DNA of 39,893 bases. Source: a virus. The translations under genes and the position numbers were made by a program. Location: positions 1 through 39,893 of the IMG/VR virus record IMGVR_UViG_3300009529_000017. One strand, written 5' to 3'. Position 1 is the stretch's first letter. Each line of letters opens with the position of its first letter. Shown here piece after piece: positions 1 through 31,896 of this stretch. The notes below the pieces were generated by a model. The model was not told the DNA's origin, made no database searches, and was given only the letters and a program-made list of their open reading frames with translations.

Positions 1-10
1 AGGACTCTTT

Positions 11-790
11 ATGGTACAGGACGGCCACGCGCGGTACTCGCTCAATATGTGGGTGACGTCGAATAGGAACTTGCTTGAGGATATGCACGAGGCCAGCAAC
101 CGCAAGGTCAAAGGCATCGCGAATGAAGGACGATTGATATCGAAAGTCATAAACGAGAAGTATGAGGCCGCCCACCTGGACGGTATGATCTATAACTTCG
201 GTCGTGACATCTTCCCGGCTGCCCAATGTATCGATGGACGAATATCGTATGAGCATAAAGGCGCCCCGATCTTCCCGATGATCGTGACGGATTCGAGGCT
301 TGATGATGGTAGCCGCCCAGTGAATCATGCTATCGAGAACTACCTCACTGAGCGGATCGATCCCTGGCTGCCCTTCCCATTGCCGGTAGGTATGGATGCC
401 GAACACTATCTTGCGAGCTGTAAGATAGGATCGGCATGTGTCCGGATGGTTAAGCTCCTGGACTTGAGGGCGAAGGTCTATATCAAGGACGACTGCAAGT
501 TTGTTCCGGTGAATGAGAATCCCGCAGCTCTTGCAGTGGCCGGGGACTGGCAGGTATATGAGGACTACCATTGCTTTGTAAAAGAGCATGCGAACCCGAA
601 GGACGATCATACGCTCGAGAAGTTTAGGGTGACTATCGAATCGATCCGCGAGCGCGGTTATGATACGAAGACGATGCTGCTTGTACTGAACGGGTCGAAC
701 GAGATTTGCGATGGGCAGAACCGGGCTGCCATCCTCTACTCGCTCTTCGGTAATATCAGTATCCCCGTACTCGACGTCACAATAGGCTGA
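11..790 (+). CDS. Hypothetical protein with ParB/sulfiredoxin-like C-terminal motif
   Basis: The predicted product has 259 residues. An AGGA at the window edge lies six bases before the ATG, so the start looks complete. The first 200 residues match nothing I recognise. The last 35 residues read ICDGQNRAAILYSLFG followed by IPVLDV, which resembles the 'I-DGQ/GxHR-AA' strand-helix and following 'IPV' strand of ParB/Srx-fold domains. That fold binds nucleotides or acts as a nuclease-like domain, but here only its end is recognisable. The next gene, a nucleotidyltransferase, begins 10 bases downstream, so the two are probably co-transcribed and may act on a shared nucleotide or sugar substrate (inference). 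Confidence 0.6.
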   Translation: MVQDGHARYSLNMWVTSNRNLLEDMHEASNRKVKGIANEGRLISKVINEKYEAAHLDGMIYNFGRDIFPAAQCIDGRISYEHKGAPIFPMIVTDSRLDDGSRPVNHAIENYLTERIDPWLPFPLPVGMDAEHYLASCKIGSACVRMVKLLDLRAKVYIKDDCKFVPVNENPAALAVAGDWQVYEDYHCFVKEHANPKDDHTLEKFRVTIESIRERGYDTKTMLLVLNGSNEICDGQNRAAILYSLFGNISIPVLDVTIG

Positions 791-800
791 GAGAGGTATT

Positions 801-1607
801 ATGAAACATCTAACGGCAATCATCCTGGCCGGTGGCAAGTCGAAACGCTTCGGCGGTAAGGTAAATAAAAACCTGTTCAAGGTCGATGGTGCGCCATTGA
901 TCTCAAGAACAATAGCACAGCTCAAAAAGCGTGGCGTGCCAACGTGGGTCTTGGTGCGTGACAAGGCGCCGTATGTGGCGGCCGGTGTAAAGGCCAATTT
1001 CTTCGAACCGGTGCGGAGTCGATGGCAAACCGAAGGGCTGCTCGTATCGAGAAAATACTGGGGCCGAGATCAGGTGCTGATCCTTTTCGGTGACGCATAC
1101 TATAGCGAGGCCTGTATGGATCTCCTAGTCGCGGGCAAGACGATATTCTATTGCTCGACGGCCGAGATATGGGGCGTATCAATCGACAGTAGATGGTACA
1201 CGCGGGCCGAGCAGATCGCAAGGAAAGTGATCAAGTATCTGGAGAAACATCGGCATCTAAATGAGAACTTGTGGCGCTTCTATTACTTCTGGTACGGGCA
1301 ACCATTTTGCGGTGTGCCTAAACATAAGTGGACACCCGGGCTCGCATTCCGGAAGGCCGGTAGGACGATCATGGTCTTCGATGAAACTGTGGACTTCGAT
1401 AGGCCCGGCGAATACGAACGCTGGCAGAGAGGTGTCCGTGGTCGTCAGGTGAAAGCCCCACATCGAGCACCGCTGTGCGTGGGTCGTAAGATCGTCCAGT
1501 TTATAGGTGAGACAGAGAACTGGCGCTGCCCGATCACGAAAAAGGTCTATCGAGGGTTCCTGCACTGCGAGCCAAAGGGCTGTCCACATCATGTACCTCA
1601 ATCATGA
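801..1607 (+). CDS. MobA/IspD-like nucleotidyltransferase with Cys-rich C-terminal extension
   Basis: Residues 4-20 contain the nucleotide-binding signature AIILAGGKSKRFGG, followed by a conserved-type lysine (NKNLFKVDG), as in NTP-transferase GT-A folds that join NTPs to sugar phosphates or cofactors. GDAYYS near residue 98 supplies the usual metal-binding Asp, and VDFDRPGEYERW near residue 200 resembles the family's closing 'DIDTPEDY' strand. The last 60 residues form an extension with CPITKK, CEPKGCPHH and basic residues, possibly a zinc-binding tail. The substrate cannot be read from sequence. A role in making a modified sugar or nucleotide for the phage is an inference. GAGG precedes the ATG. 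Confidence 0.75.
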   Translation: MKHLTAIILAGGKSKRFGGKVNKNLFKVDGAPLISRTIAQLKKRGVPTWVLVRDKAPYVAAGVKANFFEPVRSRWQTEGLLVSRKYWGRDQVLILFGDAYYSEACMDLLVAGKTIFYCSTAEIWGVSIDSRWYTRAEQIARKVIKYLEKHRHLNENLWRFYYFWYGQPFCGVPKHKWTPGLAFRKAGRTIMVFDETVDFDRPGEYERWQRGVRGRQVKAPHRAPLCVGRKIVQFIGETENWRCPITKKVYRGFLHCEPKGCPHHVPQS

Positions 1608-1618
1608 GGAGGTGAATC

Positions 1619-1834
1619 ATGGCTGCTGTTGAAATACCCTTCTTGGCCGGTAAGAAAAAGGTACTTGCGGGCTGGGTACTCTGGCCCATAGTTACAACTG
1701 TGATTACGATTGCGCTGGTGAAGATTCTTGGCGTCTCCTTGCCCGATGCGGTGAAGGCTGCACTCGCAATCGGGGCTTCGATCCCGCTGTATATGGTGGG
1801 TGAGTTTGTGAGAGATATCAAGAGAACGAAATAG
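1619..1834 (+). CDS. Small two-span membrane protein (holin-like candidate)
   Basis: The product has 71 residues and a strong GAGGAGGTGA site before its ATG. Two hydrophobic segments (about residues 17-37 and 45-62) are separated by a short turn (LGVSLPDAV). The N-terminus is lysine-rich (AGKKK) and the C-terminus is basic (RDIKRTK). Size and topology fit class II holins and other small phage membrane proteins, but no lysin gene is adjacent, so holin is only a possibility. A GGGGA-TTGA-TCCCC hairpin follows the stop codon directly. Confidence 0.55.
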   Translation: MAAVEIPFLAGKKKVLAGWVLWPIVTTVITIALVKILGVSLPDAVKAALAIGASIPLYMVGEFVRDIKRTK

Positions 1835-1872
1835 GGGGATTGATCCCCGAGCCTTTAGAATCATCTTGCCAT

Positions 1873-2013
1873 TTGCCCGTCGCCTGGAGTCTACTGCCTA
1901 TACGGGTTAGAGCCGTTTGGTATTTCTCCGTCCTGGGCATCCTACTGTTTATGGGCTTCTCCGTGCCCTTCCTATTTGCCATGGATCGGGCCATCTACGT
2001 TCAGGCCTCCTGA
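1873..2013 (+). CDS. Possible short hydrophobic ORF (TTG start)
   Basis: An open frame of 46 codons runs from a TTG to a TGA inside the otherwise gene-free 1835-2553 interval. It reads as a membrane segment (YFSVLGILLFMGFSVPFLFA) with a basic lead-in (RVRAVW), and its codon third positions are C-rich, as in neighbouring genes. No convincing Shine-Dalgarno site precedes it. It could be a second small membrane protein paired with the holin-like gene upstream, or chance. Confidence 0.25.
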   Translation: MPVAWSLLPIRVRAVWYFSVLGILLFMGFSVPFLFAMDRAIYVQAS

Positions 2014-2042
2014 GGATACCCAAGACCCGTTTTTAGAGGTAA

Positions 2043-2089
2043 GCCCTAATGTCGTCTGGGCTATACATTTAGGGGCCATCCTTTTTTTT
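2043..2089 (+). terminator. Rho-independent terminator candidate
   Basis: GCCCTAA (2043-2049) pairs with TTAGGGGC (2069-2076) with one bulged G. A run of eight T follows at 2082-2089. An inner alternative pairs AGCCC with GGGCT. It would end the transcript of the first genes just before the promoter at 2100. Confidence 0.55.
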
Positions 2090-2099
2090 CTGAATTGGC

Positions 2100-2129
2100 T
2101 TGACCTTGGTATGGATCTTGATATAGAAT
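2100..2129 (+). promoter_or_regulatory. Sigma70-type promoter candidate
   Basis: TTGACC (2100-2105), an 18-bp spacer and TAGAAT (2124-2129). An overlapping TATAGA lies 16 bp from the -35 box. It sits 10 bases after the T-run of the preceding terminator and upstream of about 400 bases of non-coding, hairpin-rich sequence, so transcription would start near 2136. Confidence 0.5.
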
Positions 2130-2135
2130 AGAGTT

Positions 2136-2540
2136 GTACATAGGGAATAGAGGAGAGTGAGAGGCCACAAAGAGCGTTGGCCTTGCGACACCGGCCTGGT
2201 GGCGAAAGGTTTAAGCAAGGTGCGAAGGGGTCAACCGAATAGAAGAACGCCGAAGCGAGCGTTCAGGACCGAAACGGGGCAAGAGAGATCTGGTGCCGAG
2301 CCGCTATTATAGAGACAGGTGCCGGGGACACGAACGTAGTAGGTCCGGCCCGAGTAGCGACCGGGCATGAAGCAATCGCTAAGATGGGGTTGAAGTGAGT
2401 CGAAAGGCTCCACCTCGTATCCGGGTTGAGCGCCCGGAAGCCCGGCAGCACGTGTTCCAGTAGGTTCCGTCAGCGGCGGGAAATGAAAGTTCGATTTAAG
2501 AGTAGTGAGTGAGAATGAGAAGATGATCAAACCTTACCGA
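2136..2540 (+). ncRNA. Candidate large structured RNA or 5' leader
   Basis: About 400 bases with no plausible gene lie between a promoter candidate and the next ribosome-binding site. Helices visible by eye: AGGCC/GGCCT (2162-2166 with 2179-2183), competing with CCTTGC/GCAAGG (2181-2186 with 2215-2220); GAACGC/GCGTTC (2245-2250 with 2259-2264), enclosed by GGTC/GACC; GCCCG/CGGGC (2348-2352 with 2362-2366); a GAAA-tetraloop hairpin GTGAGTC...GGCTCCAC (2395-2413); and TCCGGG/CCCGGA (2420-2425 with 2433-2438). The density of GC stems and GNRA-type loops is unlike the rest of the window. I do not recognise RNase P, tmRNA, a group I or II intron or a named riboswitch. Confidence 0.5.
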
Positions 2541-2553
2541 GGAGGTAAGAGAG

Positions 2554-2907
2554 ATGTCAGCAATACTGTGTGTTATTTGTGACAAGCCCATTGAGGGCTT
2601 CGTGGTTACTGATCCCGAGACCGGCAAGACCTATCATGCCGGTTGTGTTCCTAAAGTGTTTCGCGAAGAGGCCAAGGCGCAGCGTCAGGTGACGAGAGAG
2701 AATCGGGTGCCTCAGAATGTTCGGAATAAACTCAAACGTGCCGTAGGCAAAATGGGCCGTTCAATCGAGCGTTGTGAGAAGCTCGCCGCTAAGGCCGGCA
2801 AGGCCAAGGATGATGTTCGTGATACCTACCAGCTGATGGTCGAGCATGGTCAAGAGGATGCTGCGAACGCTATCCTCGAGAAGTATCATTTCAGCCTGAC
2901 CGACTGA
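2554..2907 (+). CDS. Small zinc-finger-like basic protein
   Basis: The product has 117 residues, with GAGGAGG before the ATG. The N-terminus has CVICDKPIEGF and then TYHAGCV, a CxxC/HxxC arrangement that could bind one zinc ion. The remainder is lysine- and arginine-rich and mostly helical (about residues 40-100), suggesting nucleic-acid binding. It is the first gene after the structured leader and is closed by the terminator at 2931, so it may form a single-gene unit controlled by that leader. I do not recognise a named family. Confidence 0.65.
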   Translation: MSAILCVICDKPIEGFVVTDPETGKTYHAGCVPKVFREEAKAQRQVTRENRVPQNVRNKLKRAVGKMGRSIERCEKLAAKAGKAKDDVRDTYQLMVEHGQEDAANAILEKYHFSLTD

Positions 2908-2930
2908 GGGCTGGATCGGTGTAGTAACAG

Positions 2931-2992
2931 CGGGCTGGGATCTGGGAGCGCAAGCGGGTGTAAACCCAAAAGATCCTGGCCCGTTGTATTTT
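2931..2992 (+). terminator. Terminator with 12-bp stem and structured 29-nt loop
   Basis: CGGGCTGGGATC (2931-2942) pairs with GATCCTGGCCCG (2972-2983) in 12 consecutive pairs, two of them G-U. TTGTATTTT follows. The loop contains a smaller TGGG/CCCA stem. The 3' half plus T-tract recurs at 3844-3862. Confidence 0.65.
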
Positions 2993-3018
2993 GAGACTGA
3001 TAGTGGAGGTGTTGCAAG

Positions 3019-3234
3019 ATGGCCGAAATATGTGACGCCAAGTGTGAGGAGCATCGACAGAAGATGATTGCCGCCCTGAGTTGTATAGGACCGCATCTAA
3101 GGGTGAACCAAATCTATGCTGGGTACCGAGTATATCGAGAGCCAGAGGCGGGCGACAGCCAATGCAAGGGCTGTGTTCTGGATGAATACTGTGTGGGGAT
3201 CCGGCGAGGATTGCAGAGTTCGATAGGGTTCTGA
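3019..3234 (+). CDS. Small Cys-rich protein, paralogue of the 3401 gene
   Basis: The product has 71 residues, with GGAGG before the ATG. It has two cysteines near the N-terminus (CDAKCEEH) and a C-terminal block CKGCVLDEYC followed by basic residues. This block aligns with CCWGCENEKLC in the gene at 3401 (CxGCx5C then x3R), so the two look like diverged copies. Four or more cysteines suggest a zinc site. Function unknown. Confidence 0.6.
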   Translation: MAEICDAKCEEHRQKMIAALSCIGPHLRVNQIYAGYRVYREPEAGDSQCKGCVLDEYCVGIRRGLQSSIGF

Positions 3235-3400
3235 GGCCAAGGACGGGGATAGGACGCTCATAGGTGCGCTGAGAGGGGCGATCTCTGGTAGGGTAAGGGA
3301 ATGGTATAGGTGAAATGAGATCGTGCCCTCCTGCGCTTAAGGCAGCGAATGCAAGCATACTACCGAATATGTCGTGGTATAGAATGGAGGTAACGGCCAT

Positions 3401-3661
3401 ATGGGCAAATTCGAACGGGACCGGGAGAGCGAGGATACTTTCAGGCGTGTTACGACTTGCATGGGCCGTGTGAGTAAGGTTCATATTTTCTTCCGACTGA
3501 ACGAGACCGGCGAGCGGACAGAAACAGACCTCAGCCCGTGCTGTTGGGGTTGTGAGAATGAAAAGCTGTGTGAGGCAATGCGGAGTGCAGCCCGCCGGAT
3601 ATTCAATCAGCAAAGGGAGGATAAGATCCGCGCAGAGGCCGAAAGGTCAAGACGTACTTGA
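3401..3661 (+). CDS. Small Cys-rich protein, paralogue of the 3019 gene
   Basis: The product has 86 residues, with GGAGG ten bases before the ATG. It is rich in Arg and Glu. A first Cys in TTCMGRVSK is followed by the block CCWGCENEKLC (about residues 47-57) and a basic helix (RSAARRIF) plus a charged tail. It shares the CxGCx5C block with the gene at 3019. The 165 bases between the two genes show no gene; a TATAGAAT near 3380 could be a -10 element, but I see no matching -35. Confidence 0.6.
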   Translation: MGKFERDRESEDTFRRVTTCMGRVSKVHIFFRLNETGERTETDLSPCCWGCENEKLCEAMRSAARRIFNQQREDKIRAEAERSRRT

Positions 3662-3671
3662 AATTCAAGCG

Positions 3672-3862
3672 ACTGGGCCAGCGGTCCTAAAAGCTGGTGA
3701 TCGCGACCAACCCTTCGCCCGGGTTAACGGTCGTGCGTCTTTGGCCTGGGGTGGCGTGTGGTTCGCCGGCTCCGTAATCGTTGGCAGTATCGAGTCGATG
3801 TAAGTCTAGGTGGCTTGCTTTATTATCTAGCTATCGCATGTCCCTGGCCCGGTTGTATTTTT
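3672..3862 (+). terminator. Possible long-range stem terminator
   Basis: ACTGGGCCAG (3672-3681) can pair with CTGGCCCGGT (3844-3853) over 10 bp, followed by TGTATTTTT. The 162-base interior holds a smaller AACCC/GGGTT hairpin. The 3' end repeats the motif seen at 2976-2992. No gene is evident in the interior. The long loop makes simple terminator function uncertain. Confidence 0.35.
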
Positions 3863-3884
3863 CTAAACGTAGGAGGTTTCGATT

Positions 3885-4418
3885 ATGGCGAATAAGGGTA
3901 TTCGTTGTGCGATCGAGGGGACTAGTGCATTGCTGATGCATTCCTTCCCCATGGAACCGATCGAAGCAATAGCGAAGAAAACAAAAGAGGAGCAGGCGGA
4001 GTATGCCGCATATCGCGATCCGGATACGGGAGAGCTTTACATCCCTGGCATCGCGATCCAACGAGCGCTGGTCGGCGCAGCAGTGTATAGTAAAGGCAAG
4101 GGTCGTGCGAGTTTGCAAAAGGTCGTTGCTGCATGTGTGATCATATCGCCTGAGCGTTGTGGCTTAGGTGTGAAGGAGTATCTTGTCGATAGCCGTCCTG
4201 TTGTGGTGCCGGCCACCAAAGGCCGGATCATTCGGCATAGGCCGCGGCTTGATACTTGGACTGTCGAATTCTTCATCGATTATGACGACACCCTGATGAC
4301 AAGTATTCAAGTCCGGAAAGTGGTAGATGATGCGGGTTCGCGTGTTGGTCTGCTGGATTTCCGGCCTGAACGTAAGGGTCCATTCGGTAGATTCATTGTC
4401 ATAAAATGGGAGACTTAA
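3885..4418 (+). CDS. Conserved-looking phage protein of unknown function
   Basis: The product has 177 residues, with AGGAGG before the ATG. It resembles small proteins I have seen near phage recombination genes: an N-terminal strand (GTSALLMHSFPM), an acidic/basic linker, YIPGIAIQRALVGAA, and a C-terminal block VGLLDFRPERKGPFGRF. The overall strand pattern and glycine-rich end could suit an RNA- or DNA-binding ferredoxin-like fold, but I cannot assign one. The YNNGG array starts two bases after the stop codon, and the Sak4/SSB pair lies 1 kb downstream, so a recombination role is possible. Confidence 0.6.
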   Translation: MANKGIRCAIEGTSALLMHSFPMEPIEAIAKKTKEEQAEYAAYRDPDTGELYIPGIAIQRALVGAAVYSKGKGRASLQKVVAACVIISPERCGLGVKEYLVDSRPVVVPATKGRIIRHRPRLDTWTVEFFIDYDDTLMTSIQVRKVVDDAGSRVGLLDFRPERKGPFGRFIVIKWET

Positions 4419-4420
4419 GA

Positions 4421-4749
4421 CGAGGTTCGGCTAGGTAAGGCTAGGCCAGGTAAGGCCAGGTAAAGTCGGGTTTGGTAAGGCGAGGTTCGGTATGGTACGG
4501 CTAGGCGGGGTCAGGCGCGGTGCGGCAGGCTAAGGCATGGCAAGGTACGGCGGGATCAGGCCAGGCGAGGCATGGTGCGGTAAGGCTGAGCGTGGCAAGC
4601 TGAGGCTAGGCGGGGCCTGGCAGGGCCAGGTACGGTAAGGTTTGGTACGGTAAGGTAAGGCAGGGTAAGGTATAGACTGGTTAGGTTAGCCGGGGCGAGG
4701 TCAGGCTTGGTCTGGCAAGGCAAGGCGAGGTAAGGTAGGGTAAGGTAGG
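4421..4749 (+). repeat. 65-unit YNNGG pentanucleotide array
   Basis: From 4421 to 4745 the sequence divides without slippage into 65 pentamers of the form Y-N-N-G-G, ending in a partial TAGG. 64 of 65 begin with a pyrimidine; unit 52 (actgg) is the exception. All but seven keep both final G's. Positions 2-3 vary (taagg, ctagg, ccagg, cgagg, tacgg and others). No open frame on either strand looks coding. The + strand is therefore a near-continuous (GGN3)n tract, the pattern expected of two-layer G-quadruplexes in single-stranded DNA or RNA. Confidence 0.95.
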
Positions 4750-4773
4750 AATCTAAAGCGAGGTGAGAACATC

Positions 4774-4890
4774 ATGGTCGAGATAGTCCCATTATTCGAC
4801 ATTGTTGATTTGACGATCAAGTTTCTAATTATGTGCGGGGGCCTTGTGATCGTGATAGGTATGATCTTTTGGTTCTGCCATAAAGGGTAG
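4774..4890 (+). CDS. Single-span membrane microprotein
   Basis: This 38-residue protein starts just after the pentamer array, with GAGGTGA before the ATG. It has a short acidic N-terminus and one long hydrophobic helix (FLIMCGGLVIVIGMIFWFC) ending in HKG, so it should sit in the inner membrane. The following gene begins within ten bases, implying translational coupling. Function unknown. Confidence 0.5.
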   Translation: MVEIVPLFDIVDLTIKFLIMCGGLVIVIGMIFWFCHKG

Positions 4891-4899
4891 GTGAATAAG

Positions 4900-5115
4900 A
4901 TGAAACTCGAGCCTGGAATATACTGTGGATGGTGTCGTAAGAAGACAGGCGAGGCCAAGGACGGAGAAGTAAGCCATGGTGTGTGTCCATCATGTAGAGT
5001 GATTTACCTGCAACCAGAGCTCGACCGGGCAAAGGAGGAGCGGGCTAATGCTGACACCGGAAGGCTTGATGCTGATGTGCAACGAGTGCGGATATGTCCA
5101 TGTGACAATAGCTGA
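4900..5115 (+). CDS. Small zinc-ribbon protein
   Basis: I chose the ATG at 4900 because GGTAGGTGA precedes it; an in-frame GTG at 4891 is possible. The product has 71 residues. CGWC and CPSC pairs (about residues 9-12 and 29-32) form a four-Cys zinc ribbon, followed by a charged helix (ELDRAKEERANAD). The last 22 codons overlap the next gene in another frame and read as low-quality protein, so the functional part is probably the ribbon plus helix. Confidence 0.5.
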   Translation: MKLEPGIYCGWCRKKTGEAKDGEVSHGVCPSCRVIYLQPELDRAKEERANADTGRLDADVQRVRICPCDNS

Positions 5116-5260
5116 GGCCTTCGATGGATTCCAATGGTGGGATTATTGCCCTGTGGGCTGCGGCCGAACTCCACATGCCAATACTTGGCCCGGAGTCGAG
5201 GCTATGGAAGTATTCGACGAGGAGTATGAGTTTGATATGTGTCCTGTGCCTGAGGTATGA
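5048..5260 (+). CDS. Small zinc-ribbon protein
   Basis: The product has 70 residues. AAAGGAGG lies ten bases upstream of the ATG, inside the preceding gene, which supports this start despite the 68-base overlap. It has CNEC near residue 11 and CPVGC near residue 34, enough for a zinc site, and a C-terminal acidic stretch (EVFDEEYEFD) that could mimic DNA or contact a partner. The terminator at 5263 follows at once, so this closes the operon. Function unknown. Confidence 0.55.
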   Translation: MLTPEGLMLMCNECGYVHVTIAEAFDGFQWWDYCPVGCGRTPHANTWPGVEAMEVFDEEYEFDMCPVPEV

Positions 5261-5262
5261 AG

Positions 5263-5339
5263 AACGGGCCTAGGGGTTCCATCTAAGACTTGCGCTTGGC
5301 GTCCAACGTGCAGTCGATAGCTCCTATGGCCCGTTTTTC
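5263..5339 (+). terminator. Terminator with long structured loop
   Basis: AACGGGCC (5263-5270) pairs with GGCCCGTT (5328-5335), extended beyond a 2x2 internal loop by GGGG/CTCC-type pairs, and TTTTT follows. It starts three bases after the stop codon of the zinc-ribbon gene and isolates it from the recombination operon. Confidence 0.65.
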
Positions 5340-5422
5340 TATCTGAAAGGGGGGTGATAGCCACGAATGATACCCTGGGGGAGTAGAATTATCGGCTAGG
5401 GCAGTAGTACATGGAGGGGATA

Positions 5423-6220
5423 ATGACGGAGCGTGGAGAGTATTCTGAACAGACAATGGAGTGGCTTGGAAAAGAACTGCTGGCGAAACGAATCACTGAA
5501 ACAAGGCCGGGGATCCGGATGGTCCTTTATGGTAAGCCGGGTGTTGGCAAAACGGTGTTCGGTGCGACGGCACCTGCCCCACTTATACTGGCAGTCGAAA
5601 AGGGTGTGCTGTCGATCGCAAAGCATTTTAAGCAGTTGACTGTAATTGCTATCGATCGATATGACGAACTCAAACTGGCACTTGCATTCTTGAGGAGGGA
5701 TGCGGGCAAGACCTATAAGTCCGTTGTGATCGATTCATTGAGTGAGGCCCGTCGTAAACATATGGACGATCTCCTAGAGCAGCATCAGAAAACGGCACCA
5801 TCGCTTGATCTATACCTGGCGAATACGACTGAGCTCAGGCGACTTGTTCGTGACTATTGCGACCTTTCAATCAATGTCCTTTTCATCTGTAGTATCAAGA
5901 CGGAAAAGGACGATGAGAGTGGTGGCCGCTATATTAGTGTGGGCCTTACACCACAGCTTGCAGGTGAGATGCCGGGCTATGTCGATCTGGTCGGTTATAT
6001 GGGTGTAAAGGTCATGCGGGATGCTGAGAAGAAAACAACCGTCGAGCGGTTCATTCTGACAGAGCCGACTGATCGGATCGATGCCAAGGACCGATCGGGG
6101 AAGCTCCCGCGGATCGTCCAGCCAGTAACATTTGGCGTGATCCAGGATGCGATCTTCCCGGCTAAGGTCGAACCGAGCGGGAAAGGTCCGGAAGATAAGA
6201 CTAGGAGCGAGGCGCCATGA
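5423..6220 (+). CDS. Sak4-like single-strand annealing ATPase
   Basis: The ATG at 5423 is chosen because GGAGG lies five bases upstream; the ATG at 5411 has no such site. The product has 265 residues. It shows Walker A GKPGVGKT (about residues 35-42), a Walker B-like strand SVVIDSLSE and the RecA-core order of the AAA_24/Sak4 family. These phage proteins bind single-stranded DNA and promote annealing-type recombination, usually beside an SSB. Its ATGA overlap with the SSB-like gene fits this. A Cas4-like nuclease downstream could supply resected ends (inference). Confidence 0.85.
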   Translation: MTERGEYSEQTMEWLGKELLAKRITETRPGIRMVLYGKPGVGKTVFGATAPAPLILAVEKGVLSIAKHFKQLTVIAIDRYDELKLALAFLRRDAGKTYKSVVIDSLSEARRKHMDDLLEQHQKTAPSLDLYLANTTELRRLVRDYCDLSINVLFICSIKTEKDDESGGRYISVGLTPQLAGEMPGYVDLVGYMGVKVMRDAEKKTTVERFILTEPTDRIDAKDRSGKLPRIVQPVTFGVIQDAIFPAKVEPSGKGPEDKTRSEAP

Positions 6221-6681
6221 CAAGGATCGAGTTGCCAAAACGAGATGAGAACTCGCCTCGATATAAACTCTTACCTGAGGGTTCATATCGTGTGCGGATT
6301 TGGTCGGCCGTTGAAAAGATGAGCAGCAAGGGCAAACCAATGGTCGAGGTGCAATACAAGATCGATGACATCGGCTTCGAGGCCTGGAAACGTATCTATG
6401 ACTTCTTCAGTTTGCAGGAAAATGCCCTTTGGAAGTTAAGTAATTTGTTCGACGCCCTGGGCCTACAAGCGGAAGGCAATGTCGAGATGAACTGGCAAGA
6501 CGATCTTGTCGGGCGGGCACTCATCGTCATCGTTGTGCATGAGAAGCGTACACAGGGGCCGCGAACAGGCGAACTCTGTGAGAGAGTTGAATCGTATCGC
6601 TCTATCGAGGAGCAAGAGGCCGACTTGAATATCGGCCAGTCTACGGCATCGACGGCCGAGGAGGACGAAGTACCATTCTAA
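6217..6681 (+). CDS. SSB-like single-stranded DNA-binding protein (DUF669-like)
   Basis: The product has 154 residues and overlaps the Sak4-like gene by four bases. The body has the strand pattern of phage DUF669/SSB-like proteins: LLPEGSYRVRIWSAVEK, GKPMVEVQYKID, a WKLSNLFDALG helix and GRALIVIVVHEK. The tail is a low-complexity linker ending in AEEDEVPF, closely matching the acidic DDDIPF-type tip that SSBs use to recruit partner proteins. It probably coats single strands for Sak4 and the replication initiator. Confidence 0.75.
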   Translation: MTRIELPKRDENSPRYKLLPEGSYRVRIWSAVEKMSSKGKPMVEVQYKIDDIGFEAWKRIYDFFSLQENALWKLSNLFDALGLQAEGNVEMNWQDDLVGRALIVIVVHEKRTQGPRTGELCERVESYRSIEEQEADLNIGQSTASTAEEDEVPF

Positions 6682-6700
6682 TAACCATGGAGGGTCTAAG

Positions 6701-7822
6701 ATGTCGTCAGCGGAATATGAGAATGGCGAGCCTACAGACGAGCGTATCGGTTTCGTCTTCGACTGCGACTTCTTTCTCCGTGGTTTCGTGCAGGTGCCGG
6801 GGTATATCATTCTCGATCCGGATCTCAATGATGCTGCCTTCCGAACGCTTCTGGTGATCATGCAGCATGCCTGGCGAGAGGGTGAATGTTACCCCGGCCT
6901 GCAACGGCTGGCCGATATGAGGGGGAAGGGCCGACGAGCGGTCATGCGACATATCCAAGAACTGGAGGAAAGTGGGCACCTGACAAAACACCGACGAGGC
7001 CGTGGTAAGACGAACCTTTATATTATAAATACGCAAAGGAGAGTGGTTGATTTAAGAAGTGACAAAAATGGCACCTGTAGAAGTGACATTTTTGACACCC
7101 GAAGTATAAGTAGTATAATATCCTCTACCGATCTATTCCACAAGTCCACCACCGACGGAGTCGGTGCGGACGGGCAAGCCCGTCCGGTGAGCTATAGCTC
7201 TATACCTAAGGGTGAGAGGATCAAACGAGTGATCAATAGTTTTCGTGATAGGCATCTCAAAGCAGGTGGAGTTAAGTATATGGTCCGTGAGCCGCAGGAC
7301 CGTGTACTCGCGACCGCCTTGATCAAGACCTATACCGACGAACAGATTGAGGCCTTGCTTGCCTTGTACTTCCAGGCGGCCCGTGGGGGAGTGTATTCGT
7401 TTGGCGGATTCCATAAACGTGTGCCTGAGTTATTGCAAGACTATGCCGTTGCGTGTGAGGACATAAAGGCTGATACGGTTCGTCAAATAGAATTCGAGAT
7501 GGTGGAACGTATGATTGCGAACTGGGATGAGGCTATGATTGAGCGCCGTGAGTGGATCGAAAGCCTCGAGGGTCGTATTGATGAGCTTACGAAGACACAG
7601 CCTATCCCAGACGAGGATATGCGTGGGCGTCTTAAGGCTTTGATATCGGACTTGAGTAGCGCCTATAAGTCGGCATTGACAATTCTATGTAAGACATTGG
7701 GTGTGCCGTTGGTTCTTAAACATGAACTGCATCGGCTACTGGATGGTGATTATCTCGAGGTGCGAGCTTGTCTTGTCCGGATGCGTGATAGCCGATCAAA
7801 CGAGGGAGGTGAGAAGATATGA
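6701..7822 (+). CDS. Replication initiator-like protein with N-terminal winged helix
   Basis: The product has 373 residues, with GGAGGG before the ATG. Residues about 30-110 form an HTH/winged-helix unit (LNDAAFRTLLVIMQHAW, CYPGLQRLADM, RRAVMRHIQELEESG, a basic wing and NLYIIN), as in phage replication proteins of the HTH_36/DnaD type. A low-complexity linker (about 110-165) follows, then a helical domain. The linker DNA contains two iteron-like repeats and strong hairpins, as lambda O carries its origin inside the gene. The N-terminal domain would bind the iterons and the C-terminus would load a helicase (inference). Confidence 0.7.
   Translation: MSSAEYENGEPTDERIGFVFDCDFFLRGFVQVPGYIILDPDLNDAAFRTLLVIMQHAWREGECYPGLQRLADMRGKGRRAVMRHIQELEESGHLTKHRRGRGKTNLYIINTQRRVVDLRSDKNGTCRSDIFDTRSISSIISSTDLFHKSTTDGVGADGQARPVSYSSIPKGERIKRVINSFRDRHLKAGGVKYMVREPQDRVLATALIKTYTDEQIEALLALYFQAARGGVYSFGGFHKRVPELLQDYAVACEDIKADTVRQIEFEMVERMIANWDEAMIERREWIESLEGRIDELTKTQPIPDEDMRGRLKALISDLSSAYKSALTILCKTLGVPLVLKHELHRLLDGDYLEVRACLVRMRDSRSNEGGEKI
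7020..7190 (+). other. Candidate replication origin inside the initiator gene
   Basis: Two 19-bp direct repeats, AAGTGACAAAAATGGCACC (7057-7075) and AAGTGACATTTTTGACACC (7081-7099), begin 24 bp apart. Each contains the dyad GTGnCA-N4-TGnCAC. AT-rich stretches flank them (tttatattataaatac near 7016-7031; gtataagtagtataatat at 7104-7121). Two adjacent perfect hairpins follow: CACCGAC-GGA-GTCGGTG (7150-7166) and CGGACGGG-CAAG-CCCGTCCG (7167-7186). The encoded residues are a poorly structured linker, consistent with selection on the DNA itself. Confidence 0.55.
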
Positions 7823-8193
7823 AAACCGAACGCGTGGTGAACCCTGTTGAATCAAGTGTGTTACTTATCCTCGCGTTCGAAACGAGTGAACGAGCAGGTA
7901 AGGTTTACGAGAAGTTTAGAGATGGCTTGATAGTTGACATGCATCGAACCTGTTTAGACAGACCGAGCCATGATAGATTCTTCATGCTGATGCAACAGCA
8001 TCTGGGTCTTGATCATGAAGGCGCGAGGCGGGAAGTGCTTAGGGTTGCGAAAACTATTGCGATCCTCGAGCTCACAGCAATAGGTAAGGCTCCGGGCAAG
8101 GGCAGCAAGGGCTTATGTACAACATATGAATCTGCTGGCAAGGCTGCCTGGACCTTGTATTGGAATCTTGTATCTGACGAACAGACCAAATAA
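7819..8193 (+). CDS. Hypothetical protein
   Basis: The product has 124 residues and its ATG overlaps the stop codon of the initiator gene. It is mostly helical and charged, with a single Cys near residue 45, a HEGARREVLRVAKTIAILEL helix and a basic Gly-rich segment (GKAPGKGSKG). I do not recognise the family. Its place directly behind the initiator suggests an accessory replication role such as a loader or adaptor, which is inference from context alone. Confidence 0.55.
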   Translation: MKTERVVNPVESSVLLILAFETSERAGKVYEKFRDGLIVDMHRTCLDRPSHDRFFMLMQQHLGLDHEGARREVLRVAKTIAILELTAIGKAPGKGSKGLCTTYESAGKAAWTLYWNLVSDEQTK

Positions 8194-8207
8194 AAGGAAA
8201 GGTGGTT

Positions 8208-9227
8208 ATGAGAGTACTTACGCATTACAACTATGAGTTTACCAATATCAAAGATGCATTGGATCATCTGCGATCGCATCGACGTGTTGAAGACATCGAA
8301 GTGAGAACAGGTTCAGATGATCTCATTTTCGATGGTGATATGGTTTCGGTCCATGGTGCGGAGCCTATCAGAATGTCGGGAGCATTCCTGAGAGCGTTTT
8401 GTGATCGTGTTGAACCGCATCTGCCATTACGGTTTGCTTCGAAGCTGCCGGCCGACCTATTCGAAACGAATGCGAATAGGCTGATGCATATGGTTAAGAA
8501 CAGGGGCCAAAGGCTGACGGTAAGAGTTGAAACGTGGCTTAACGATGATGGCTCCCCGGTGAAGCGGACAGCGCAATCCCTGGTGACGGACGTATGTCAG
8601 TTCATCGATCATGAGGATGTGCTTGAGCGAGCACTTGCAATCAATGGCCGGCCTATTAGTACAAAGGTTGTTCTGACCGATGAGCTCCTCAGGGTGAATG
8701 CGATTGTAACTGCTTTCGATGTTACGGATCGCCAAGGTGAGGCCGAGCATTTCCAAATCGGTTATGATCTTGTGAATAGCGAAACACGGAATACAAGGAT
8801 CGTAGTTGCGAGTTTCTTGGAACGACTCGTATGTGCTAATGGTGCAGTTGCGGCTATCCCAGGCTTCGGTGGCTCCTATGGTAAACGCCATGTCGTCGAT
8901 CCAGACAAGGCCCTTGATAAGGTTGAAAGTATCCTGGCAACGATCGACTGGGCTGGAAGTAATAGGGCATTCTATATGCGACTACAAGAGATGATCGCTA
9001 ACGAAGTCTCGCGTGAAACTATCTGGCGGCATCGTATTGATGCGGAAGCGATTGCCGGCCCTGCATTGACACGCGAGTTCTGGGAGCAGCCTTGGCCTGA
9101 GACCGTTACGGAATTCGATGTCTTCAACCGTATGACAAGGCTTGCCCGGGATCTGGCTGCTGATAGCAAACACAGCCTTGAAGTGGTTGCCGGCAAGTCG
9201 TTCTTGTCGTTCTTGGGAGACATCTGA
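8208..9227 (+). CDS. DUF932-like phage/plasmid protein
   Basis: I use the ATG at 8208, which follows AAAGGAAAGGTGG; a GTG at 8202 is less likely. The product has 339 residues. The central block FQIGYDLVNSETRNTRIVVA and then LERLVCANGAV matches the 'NSE-G... R-xCxNGM' pattern of DUF932 (phage/plasmid-like TIGR03299) proteins. That family is common in large phages and plasmids beside recombination genes, and its biochemical role is not established. A helical C-terminal third follows. Two strong stem-loops lie between it and the Cas4-like gene. Confidence 0.6.
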   Translation: MRVLTHYNYEFTNIKDALDHLRSHRRVEDIEVRTGSDDLIFDGDMVSVHGAEPIRMSGAFLRAFCDRVEPHLPLRFASKLPADLFETNANRLMHMVKNRGQRLTVRVETWLNDDGSPVKRTAQSLVTDVCQFIDHEDVLERALAINGRPISTKVVLTDELLRVNAIVTAFDVTDRQGEAEHFQIGYDLVNSETRNTRIVVASFLERLVCANGAVAAIPGFGGSYGKRHVVDPDKALDKVESILATIDWAGSNRAFYMRLQEMIANEVSRETIWRHRIDAEAIAGPALTREFWEQPWPETVTEFDVFNRMTRLARDLAADSKHSLEVVAGKSFLSFLGDI

Positions 9228-9239
9228 GAGTATGCTTAA

Positions 9240-9324
9240 GGGGGCTGGTCGGGAGAATCGTGGCAAGTTCGGTGCTGTCCCGTCCGATGTGCAGCCATGT
9301 GCAGAATTCGGGTCACCAGCCCCC
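9240..9324 (+). other. Stem-loop closed by a perfect 10-bp stem
   Basis: GGGGGCTGGT (9240-9249) pairs with ACCAGCCCCC (9315-9324) around a 65-base loop. No T-tract follows, so it is not a standard terminator. It is the first of two tandem large stem-loops in this 223-base intergenic region, which contains no plausible gene. Confidence 0.55.
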
Positions 9325-31038: not shown

Positions 31039-31411
31039 AGACTCTTAACCCACCAAGACCCGAGAACCTAATAGACGCGCCTAGAGTAGGCTTGAGCTAA
31101 GGGGGAAAGCCCGGGGGGGTTGCTCTCAGAACCAGACGCGGAACCTGGAGAGATAGCTTCGCCGTGGTCACCATACGCCCTGGAACCGCCTGAGACGGTC
31201 GATCGTGAGGGTGCTGGTGGTAGGACAAGGGCTATGGTGTGATCGTGGCCTGGTGGGCCTGTGAGCGTGTGGGAGGTAAGAGTGAGGGGTGAGGCCTGGG
31301 GGTATATGGTTGGCCTCATGGCTATCGCAAGCAAAGCATGTCCTAAGTGGTGGTATATCAACACGTTCACCCAACGTCCTATAACCCGTATTATGGCAAC
31401 TTGCCAGGAGT
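31039..31411 (+). other. Non-coding region, G-rich, with local hairpins
   Basis: No frame on either strand looks coding. The first half is G-rich with short palindromes (GCCTA-GAG-TAGGC near 31080). TGAGGCC/GGCCTCA (31290-31296 with 31312-31318) forms a clean 7-bp hairpin. No promoter or T-run stands out. It leads directly into the iteron array, so it may be part of the same replication, partition or packaging site. Confidence 0.4.
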
Positions 31412-31798
31412 CACCGATTGTCACCATTTATCACCGATAATGACCTGACGGCACTTACCGCAGCTTGGGGGTTTACTTGTTGATTGTCTGGTGTAATCAC
31501 CGATAGTCACCAATAGTCTGGCATTATCTCGTACTGTCGCCGATTATCTGGTACTTTCACCATGTTTCACCAGGTTTGATGAGGATTGAAATTCGTGGTC
31601 ATAGTAGCCGATGTTAGTGATTGTCTGGTACTTTCACTACCTTTCACCGATTATCTGGTGTTATCTGGTGCTTTCACCGATTATCTGGTGCTTTCACCAA
31701 CTATCAGTAGGTTTGATCAGGACTGAACGTTGCCGATTGTCTGGTACTTTCACTGATTGTCAGCTATTATCTGGTGCTTTCACCAGAAGTCACCAACC
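31412..31798 (+). repeat. Iteron array with 17-bp unit TTRTCTGGTRCTTTCAC
   Basis: Six copies matching TTRTCTGGTRCTTTCAC begin at 31544, 31621, 31661, 31681, 31737 and 31767; a diverged copy (GATTGTCTGGTGTAATCACC) begins at 31482. Each copy can form a CACC...GGTG dyad with its neighbour, e.g. CACCGATTATCTGGTG at 31645 and 31675. A longer block, AGGTTTGATSAGGAYTGAA, recurs at 31572 and 31709. Degenerate CACCRA/CACCAA units flank the array. The region is gene-free and AT-richer than its surroundings, as expected for an origin, a centromere-like site or another protein-bound site. Confidence 0.8.
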
Positions 31799-31896
31799 AT
31801 CACCAACCCTGAGAACCCGTGCCTATCGCCAACAGAGAGGTGTGAGAGCTGGAAATCGCCGTTTTTGTGTAGGAAAGTTGATAGGCCTTCCCCTAC

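Follow-up and report, generated by a model that had tools for sequence, protein, structure and literature searches.

A pentameric GGYNN tract beside a Cas7-like gene in a viral DNA stretch: very probably the guide array of a phage-borne VIPR system

In a stretch of 39,893 nt from IMG/VR virus record IMGVR_UViG_3300009529_000017 (the whole stretch is called the window below), a gene for a Cas7-like protein is followed directly by a long tract of in-phase pentamers. We are confident that the gene and the tract together make up a phage-borne VIPR system, the tract serving as its guide-RNA array. The protein family, the fold, the tract, its orientation and its linkage to the gene were observed here; the guide code and the repression of targets would be carried over, by analogy, from the system of SUSP1. 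With this assignment the window would provide a further VIPR member, one whose single guide block is unusually long.

VIPR (Viral Interference Programmable Repeat), known at the time of our search only from a 2026 preprint, is a newly reported kind of RNA-guided DNA recognition with a noncontiguous code; it has been suggested that class 1 CRISPR is related to it or descends from it. According to the preprint, the system consists of Vipr, an early-branching RAMP protein, and of vrRNAs in which GGY and NN alternate; a vrRNA carries 9–16 YNNGG units, with GGY constant and NN hypervariable, and then an invariant folded 3′ tail (PMC13142463). The NN dinucleotides act as the guide and pair with double-stranded DNA, leaving out one base between successive pairs; the complex acts as a repressor of transcription and is naturally aimed at competing phages and satellites (PMC13142463). 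Expression, binding, code and repression were shown in SUSP1 and in a Pseudomonas fulva prophage, and a SUSP1 vrRNA with altered NN lost silencing of the matched target (PMC13142463). The variety reported so far comprises seven types, overlapping (staggered) and hammerhead-interspersed arrays, and single-guide systems (PMC13142463). VIPR loci typically also have an accessory gene (vap), which differs between types.

RESULTS

The vipr gene and its protein

Judged by profile matches and by a predicted structure, the product of the gene upstream of the tract is Vipr, a CRISPR RAMP/Cas7-like protein (Table 1). It matched phrog_4652, a family with unannotated function, with E = 3.9e-18; the same family was matched by 64 of 65 aligned family members. 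A profile of the 65 members found PDB entry 36pp (‘SUSP1 Vipr protein’) with E = 1.3e-33, and P0001 alone found it with E = 3.1e-5, the pairwise identity to SUSP1 Vipr being 24%. The family has no entry in Pfam or NCBIfam. The AlphaFold model of P0001 had a pLDDT of 96.6; the solved folds nearest to it were Csm3/Cas7 backbone subunits (Foldseek E = 8.4e-8), and comparison with Csm3 gave a Z of 13.3 and an rmsd of 4.0 Å over 161 residues.

Table 1. Features of the window in and around the putative VIPR locus
Feature	Position	Strand	Basis
vipr, coding for the 177-aa predicted Vipr protein P0001, single-RRM RAMP/Cas7-like, phrog_4652	3885–4418	+	Profile, structure and fold matches
Putative vrRNA guide array, 65 GGYNN (YNNGG) units, NN as presumed guide dinucleotides	4421–4748 (YNNGG register)	+	Phase count; same-strand tract beside 57/60 Vipr homologues
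Weak candidate for a 3′ tail/leader, GAATCTAAAGCGAGGTGAGAACATC, also containing the following ORF's ribosome site	4749–4773	+	Resemblance to a relative
Membrane microprotein ORF, 38 aa	4774–4890	+	Sequence

Architecture of the tract

Read in the GGYNN register, the tract is a run of 65 in-phase units (positions 4424–4748, + strand) with zero indels. Both Gs are present in 58 of the 65 units and the pyrimidine in 64, so that the counts given in an earlier, sequence-only reading of this DNA were reproduced exactly. The array starts 2 nt past the stop codon of vipr and forms a single unbroken block; the imperfect units are the seven numbered 8, 21, 26, 33, 35, 50 and 53 (0-based). At the GG frequency of the window, 0.080, the probability of at least 58 in-phase GG in 65 units is ∼1e-55; shuffling the tract gave no more than 25. 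Neither strand of the window holds a second run of five or more in-phase GGNNN units. At positions 3277–3298 lies a 22-nt partial repeat of the tract end, which looks like a chance occurrence. As the two N positions are free, Tandem Repeats Finder reported the tract only as fragments.

The three + frames of the tract contain 9, 7 and 7 stops. With stops in every + frame, a coding sequence was ruled out; translation in a conserved frame, a possibility that the sequence-only reading had itself named, does not occur. The NN of the window tract are A-rich, a feature that would fit an origin by adenine mutagenesis (DGR-like), which we considered.

Elsewhere in the window, positions 801–1607, near its start, encode a MobA-like nucleotidyltransferase (Pfam NTP_transf_3, E = 7.6e-12), which is not usual in the early region of a phage. 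Scattered repeats with a 10-bp period (TCACC.., TTATCTGGTG) occur at positions 31410–31808, in or near the 31-kb genes.

Linkage of gene and tract across viruses

Scanning IMG/VR for 11 or more perfect GGYNN units gave at least 120 loci; similar tracts thus do occur in other phages, as the sequence-only reading had stated. Considering the IMG/VR matches listed together with the window, we saw highly diverse NN with GGY kept in 112 of 121 loci, whereas 119 loci turned up when bacterial and archaeal genomes were scanned for the same 11 units, high diversity being seen in 7 of them and slippage repeats in the other 112. Many viral loci contain several modules of ∼8–20 units between short constant delimiters or hairpins. 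Short phage-specific delimiters separate the guide modules of L056, L102, L103, L021, L011, L078, L053, L005, L035 and L095 (our locus handles); they take the form of ATG after GGCTA, of GGAACNN, GGTACNN, TCAR or CCTCAR, or of a 4-nt GGCA unit shifting the phase by one.

In the strand analysis the tracts were masked and a codon-scored gene caller was used; the antisense strands of the tracts are stop-poor and mislead naive ORF calling. Among the matches listed, the gene located 5′ of the tract was co-oriented with it in 291 of 315 tracts, which pointed to RNA. Genes annotated along GGYNN tracts or antisense to them are probably spurious; gene 40 of Gordonia phage Trine (L425, MH271318) is a public ‘hypothetical protein’ annotated over a guide array.

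Blind clustering of the ORFs of tract loci produced the vipr family as by far the largest one, with 69 loci among the matches listed; its members were situated no more than 300 nt from the tract in 53 of these 69 loci and on the same strand in 66. A start from the protein only (the profile search of viral contigs used a nine-sequence sub-alignment) gave 60 loci with Vipr homologues; a sense GGYNN tract was present within 2.5 kb in 57 of them and an antisense tract in none (0/60). In keeping with VIPR being a system carried for the most part by viruses and proviruses, Vipr homologues are present in phage isolates; the window itself is an IMG/VR virus record.

The vipr gene and the tract stay paired in 29 close relatives with 56–73% identity, while homologues of Sak4, SSB and other early genes of the window were found beside none of the 29. 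As gene and tract are kept while the flanking genes differ, the vipr–tract module moves between unrelated phages. No recurrent neighbour other than vipr was seen in 25 non-redundant close relatives; a vap accessory gene was not recognisable or conserved in the clade. Long unbroken blocks occur in relatives as well: 78–81 units in L274, 65 in L320/L321 and 61 in L278.

A second family of ∼160 aa with the motif FEWDD..YRL.QAR (phrog_15946) was found beside vipr and a tract in 14 of 15 loci (L048, L051, L073, L077, L080, L090, L093–L096, L105, L106, L117 and others); it probably represents the vap accessory of a different VIPR type.

Guide code and search for targets

The NN of 152 loci (4,596 units) fitted codon positions 1–2 best, with a log-likelihood gain of +149 over base composition and a bootstrap of 100%; the values for the other codon phases were +27 (positions 2–3) and −470 (positions 3–1), and the codon fit was 70–80% in sense orientation. 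A fit of this kind would be predicted for guides that match genes and skip the wobble base. A free compositional model was better than every codon model; the NN, therefore, carry other constraints too.

Five 8-unit windows of the array compared with all of IMG/VR under the 1-nt-skip rule revealed no targets: there were 97 matches with extension at chance level (agreement of flanking units 7.0% versus 6.25% expected). A comparison of skips 0–5 in 3.0 Mb of DNA gave nothing above chance, with no signal at skip 0, 1 or 2; an excess at skip 3 was made up of the GGYNN tracts themselves.

Ends of the arrays

A stretch resembling the candidate tail, GGAAAAATCTAAGGCAAGGAG, follows the upstream tract of a relative (L087/L264); Rfam had no match for the candidate. 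In the tracts of relatives NN is AA or AG in 60% of second-last and 52% of third-last units, versus ∼15% inside, and GGR follows the tract end in many close relatives of the window vipr, L087/L264 included. The window array ends with ...GGTAA GGTAG GGTAA GGTAG. It is likely that the AA/AG ending is a 3′ handle. The signature was not informative for internal vrRNA ends in the 65-unit block, because the block is A-rich. As to the microprotein ORF downstream, nothing that we saw makes it part of the VIPR system; none of the genes next to vipr is conserved within the clade.

In other arrays, those of Gordonia phage Trine (L098, positions 4715–5005), L017 (positions 6878–7231) and L427–L454, guide modules are separated by ∼41-nt tRNA-like minihelices composed of a perfect T-arm (GGTTCGANTC) and an acceptor-like stem, with a conserved GG in the linker. 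A dedicated scan for a T-loop followed by GGYNN units found 30 viral stretches; 25 of these loci had a Vipr profile match. Ordinary phage tRNA clusters accounted for L445 (with a Vipr match) and for three scan loci with no Vipr match; L427 and L443 had one ARAGORN tRNA call each. The pairing test was made with 38 elements, drawn from the scan hits and from additional copies at those loci; the tRNA-cluster loci and L427/L443 were left out. The T-stem was paired 5/5 in all 38 elements, versus 3.4 with strands swapped between loci, and an acceptor-like helix of at least 5 pairs was formed in 37 of 38, versus 35% with swapped strands. ARAGORN calls nearly none of the minihelices tRNA. Over 20 viral VIPR loci have such tRNA-like minihelices between guides; tRNA is unmentioned in the main text of the preprint (PMC13142463). 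tRNase Z or RNase P would be obvious candidates for shaping the guide ends at these elements. A tRNA-like tail in many arrays, apparently undescribed, would reveal how the guides of those arrays are cleaved and terminated.

DISCUSSION

Proposed mechanism

The tract would be transcribed in the direction of vipr, from upstream through the gene, to yield vrRNA guide(s). Vipr subunits, each with its glycine-rich loop and thumb, would line up on the RNA; one subunit on each 5-nt GGYNN unit would account for the strictness of the phase and for GGY being fixed while NN is free. The NN pairs would read a double-stranded DNA target two bases out of three (NNxNNx...), and the complex would block transcription of genes of rival phages or satellites. 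The 65-unit block may be processed into overlapping or successive guides, or may serve undivided. One could also speculate, tentatively, that the window VIPR is a stripped-down form, consisting of a lone Vipr gene, without an accessory protein, and of a continuous tract giving overlapping guides or one very long Vipr filament; a single RNA could then carry several targets in staggered registers.

Our survey provides independent blind support for the pairing of gene and array in well over a hundred viral contigs; it also independently supports the wobble-skipping code.

Other explanations of the tract

A DNA element serving the Sak4/SSB module (a two-layer G-quadruplex, an R-loop or a recombination/replication pause) had to be considered, since the + strand fits (GGN3)n and both a Sak4-like protein (P0002, phrog_124) and an SSB-like product of the 6217 gene are encoded nearby. 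The sequence-only reading had proposed such a G-quadruplex, pause or protein-loading site, and had suggested looking for phage tracts beside recombination genes. However, the conserved partner of the tract turned out to be vipr; none of the 29 close relatives, in which vipr and tract stay together, has Sak4, SSB or the other window genes alongside, and these genes thus are not conserved neighbours of the tract. Also, a G-quadruplex needs no Y at position 3 and cannot explain the near-absence of purine there, nor the fixed sense orientation of a tract that follows transcription. We consider a DNA element very improbable; an RNA element between the vipr gene and the microprotein, another option listed in the same reading, agrees with the sense orientation and the vipr linkage.

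Such an RNA element could still be a cis site for a ring- or filament-forming regulator, bound with a TRAP-like 5-nt periodicity and having no guide function. The period, the three fixed and two free bases, the sense orientation and the adjoining single gene with an RNA-binding fold would all suit a site of this kind; yet the fold of the partner is RAMP/Cas7, the NN statistics resemble codon positions 1–2, and the homologous SUSP1 system targets DNA through NN (PMC13142463), which leaves little room for a regulator site. Still less credible, to the point of being negligible, is a neutral satellite, i.e. an old pentamer expansion without function. Low-diversity slippage arrays of pentamers are indeed common in bacterial chromosomes, making up 112 of the 119 matches there, but in the window tract the NN are randomised and GGY is kept, which upholds the earlier argument for selection on GG(Y) spacing rather than recent slippage; besides, high-diversity tracts are virus-enriched (112/121 loci among the matches listed versus 7/119) and tied to one gene family.

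Comparison with known systems

The VIPR assignment of the window places it next to the systems of SUSP1 and the P. fulva prophage, with which it shares a homologous Vipr, same-strand GGY/NN pentamers next to the gene and a phage-borne location. The published vrRNAs are ∼100 nt long, with 9–16 units and a folded tail, whereas the window has an unbroken 65-unit block with no clear internal tails. In SUSP1 a CDS lies between vipr and the array, while in the window the array adjoins vipr, with no vap1-like gene.

RNA bound by TRAP (tryptophan attenuation protein) has, like the tract, a period of 5, each repeat containing three fixed bases and two free ones; the TRAP fold, however, is unrelated, and its sites are GAG/UAG in ∼11 repeats. 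To our knowledge, TRAP-bound RNA has no guide function.

In comparison with class 1 CRISPR-Cas, no CRISPR array (identical repeats with unique contiguous spacers) was found in positions 1–9300, the tract having no constant repeat, and no Cas proteins (Cas5/6/10, Cas1/2) were found when the main neighbouring genes were compared with Pfam, PHROG and PADLOC; a marginal CARF3 match (E = 0.001) was seen in the neighbouring HTH replication protein. Thus the window differs from these systems in having neither CRISPR repeats nor cas genes, and its guide would be noncontiguous, two bases per five. What it has in common with their backbone (Csm3/Cas7, types III and VII) is the RAMP fold and, presumably, a filament of subunits formed on guide RNA.
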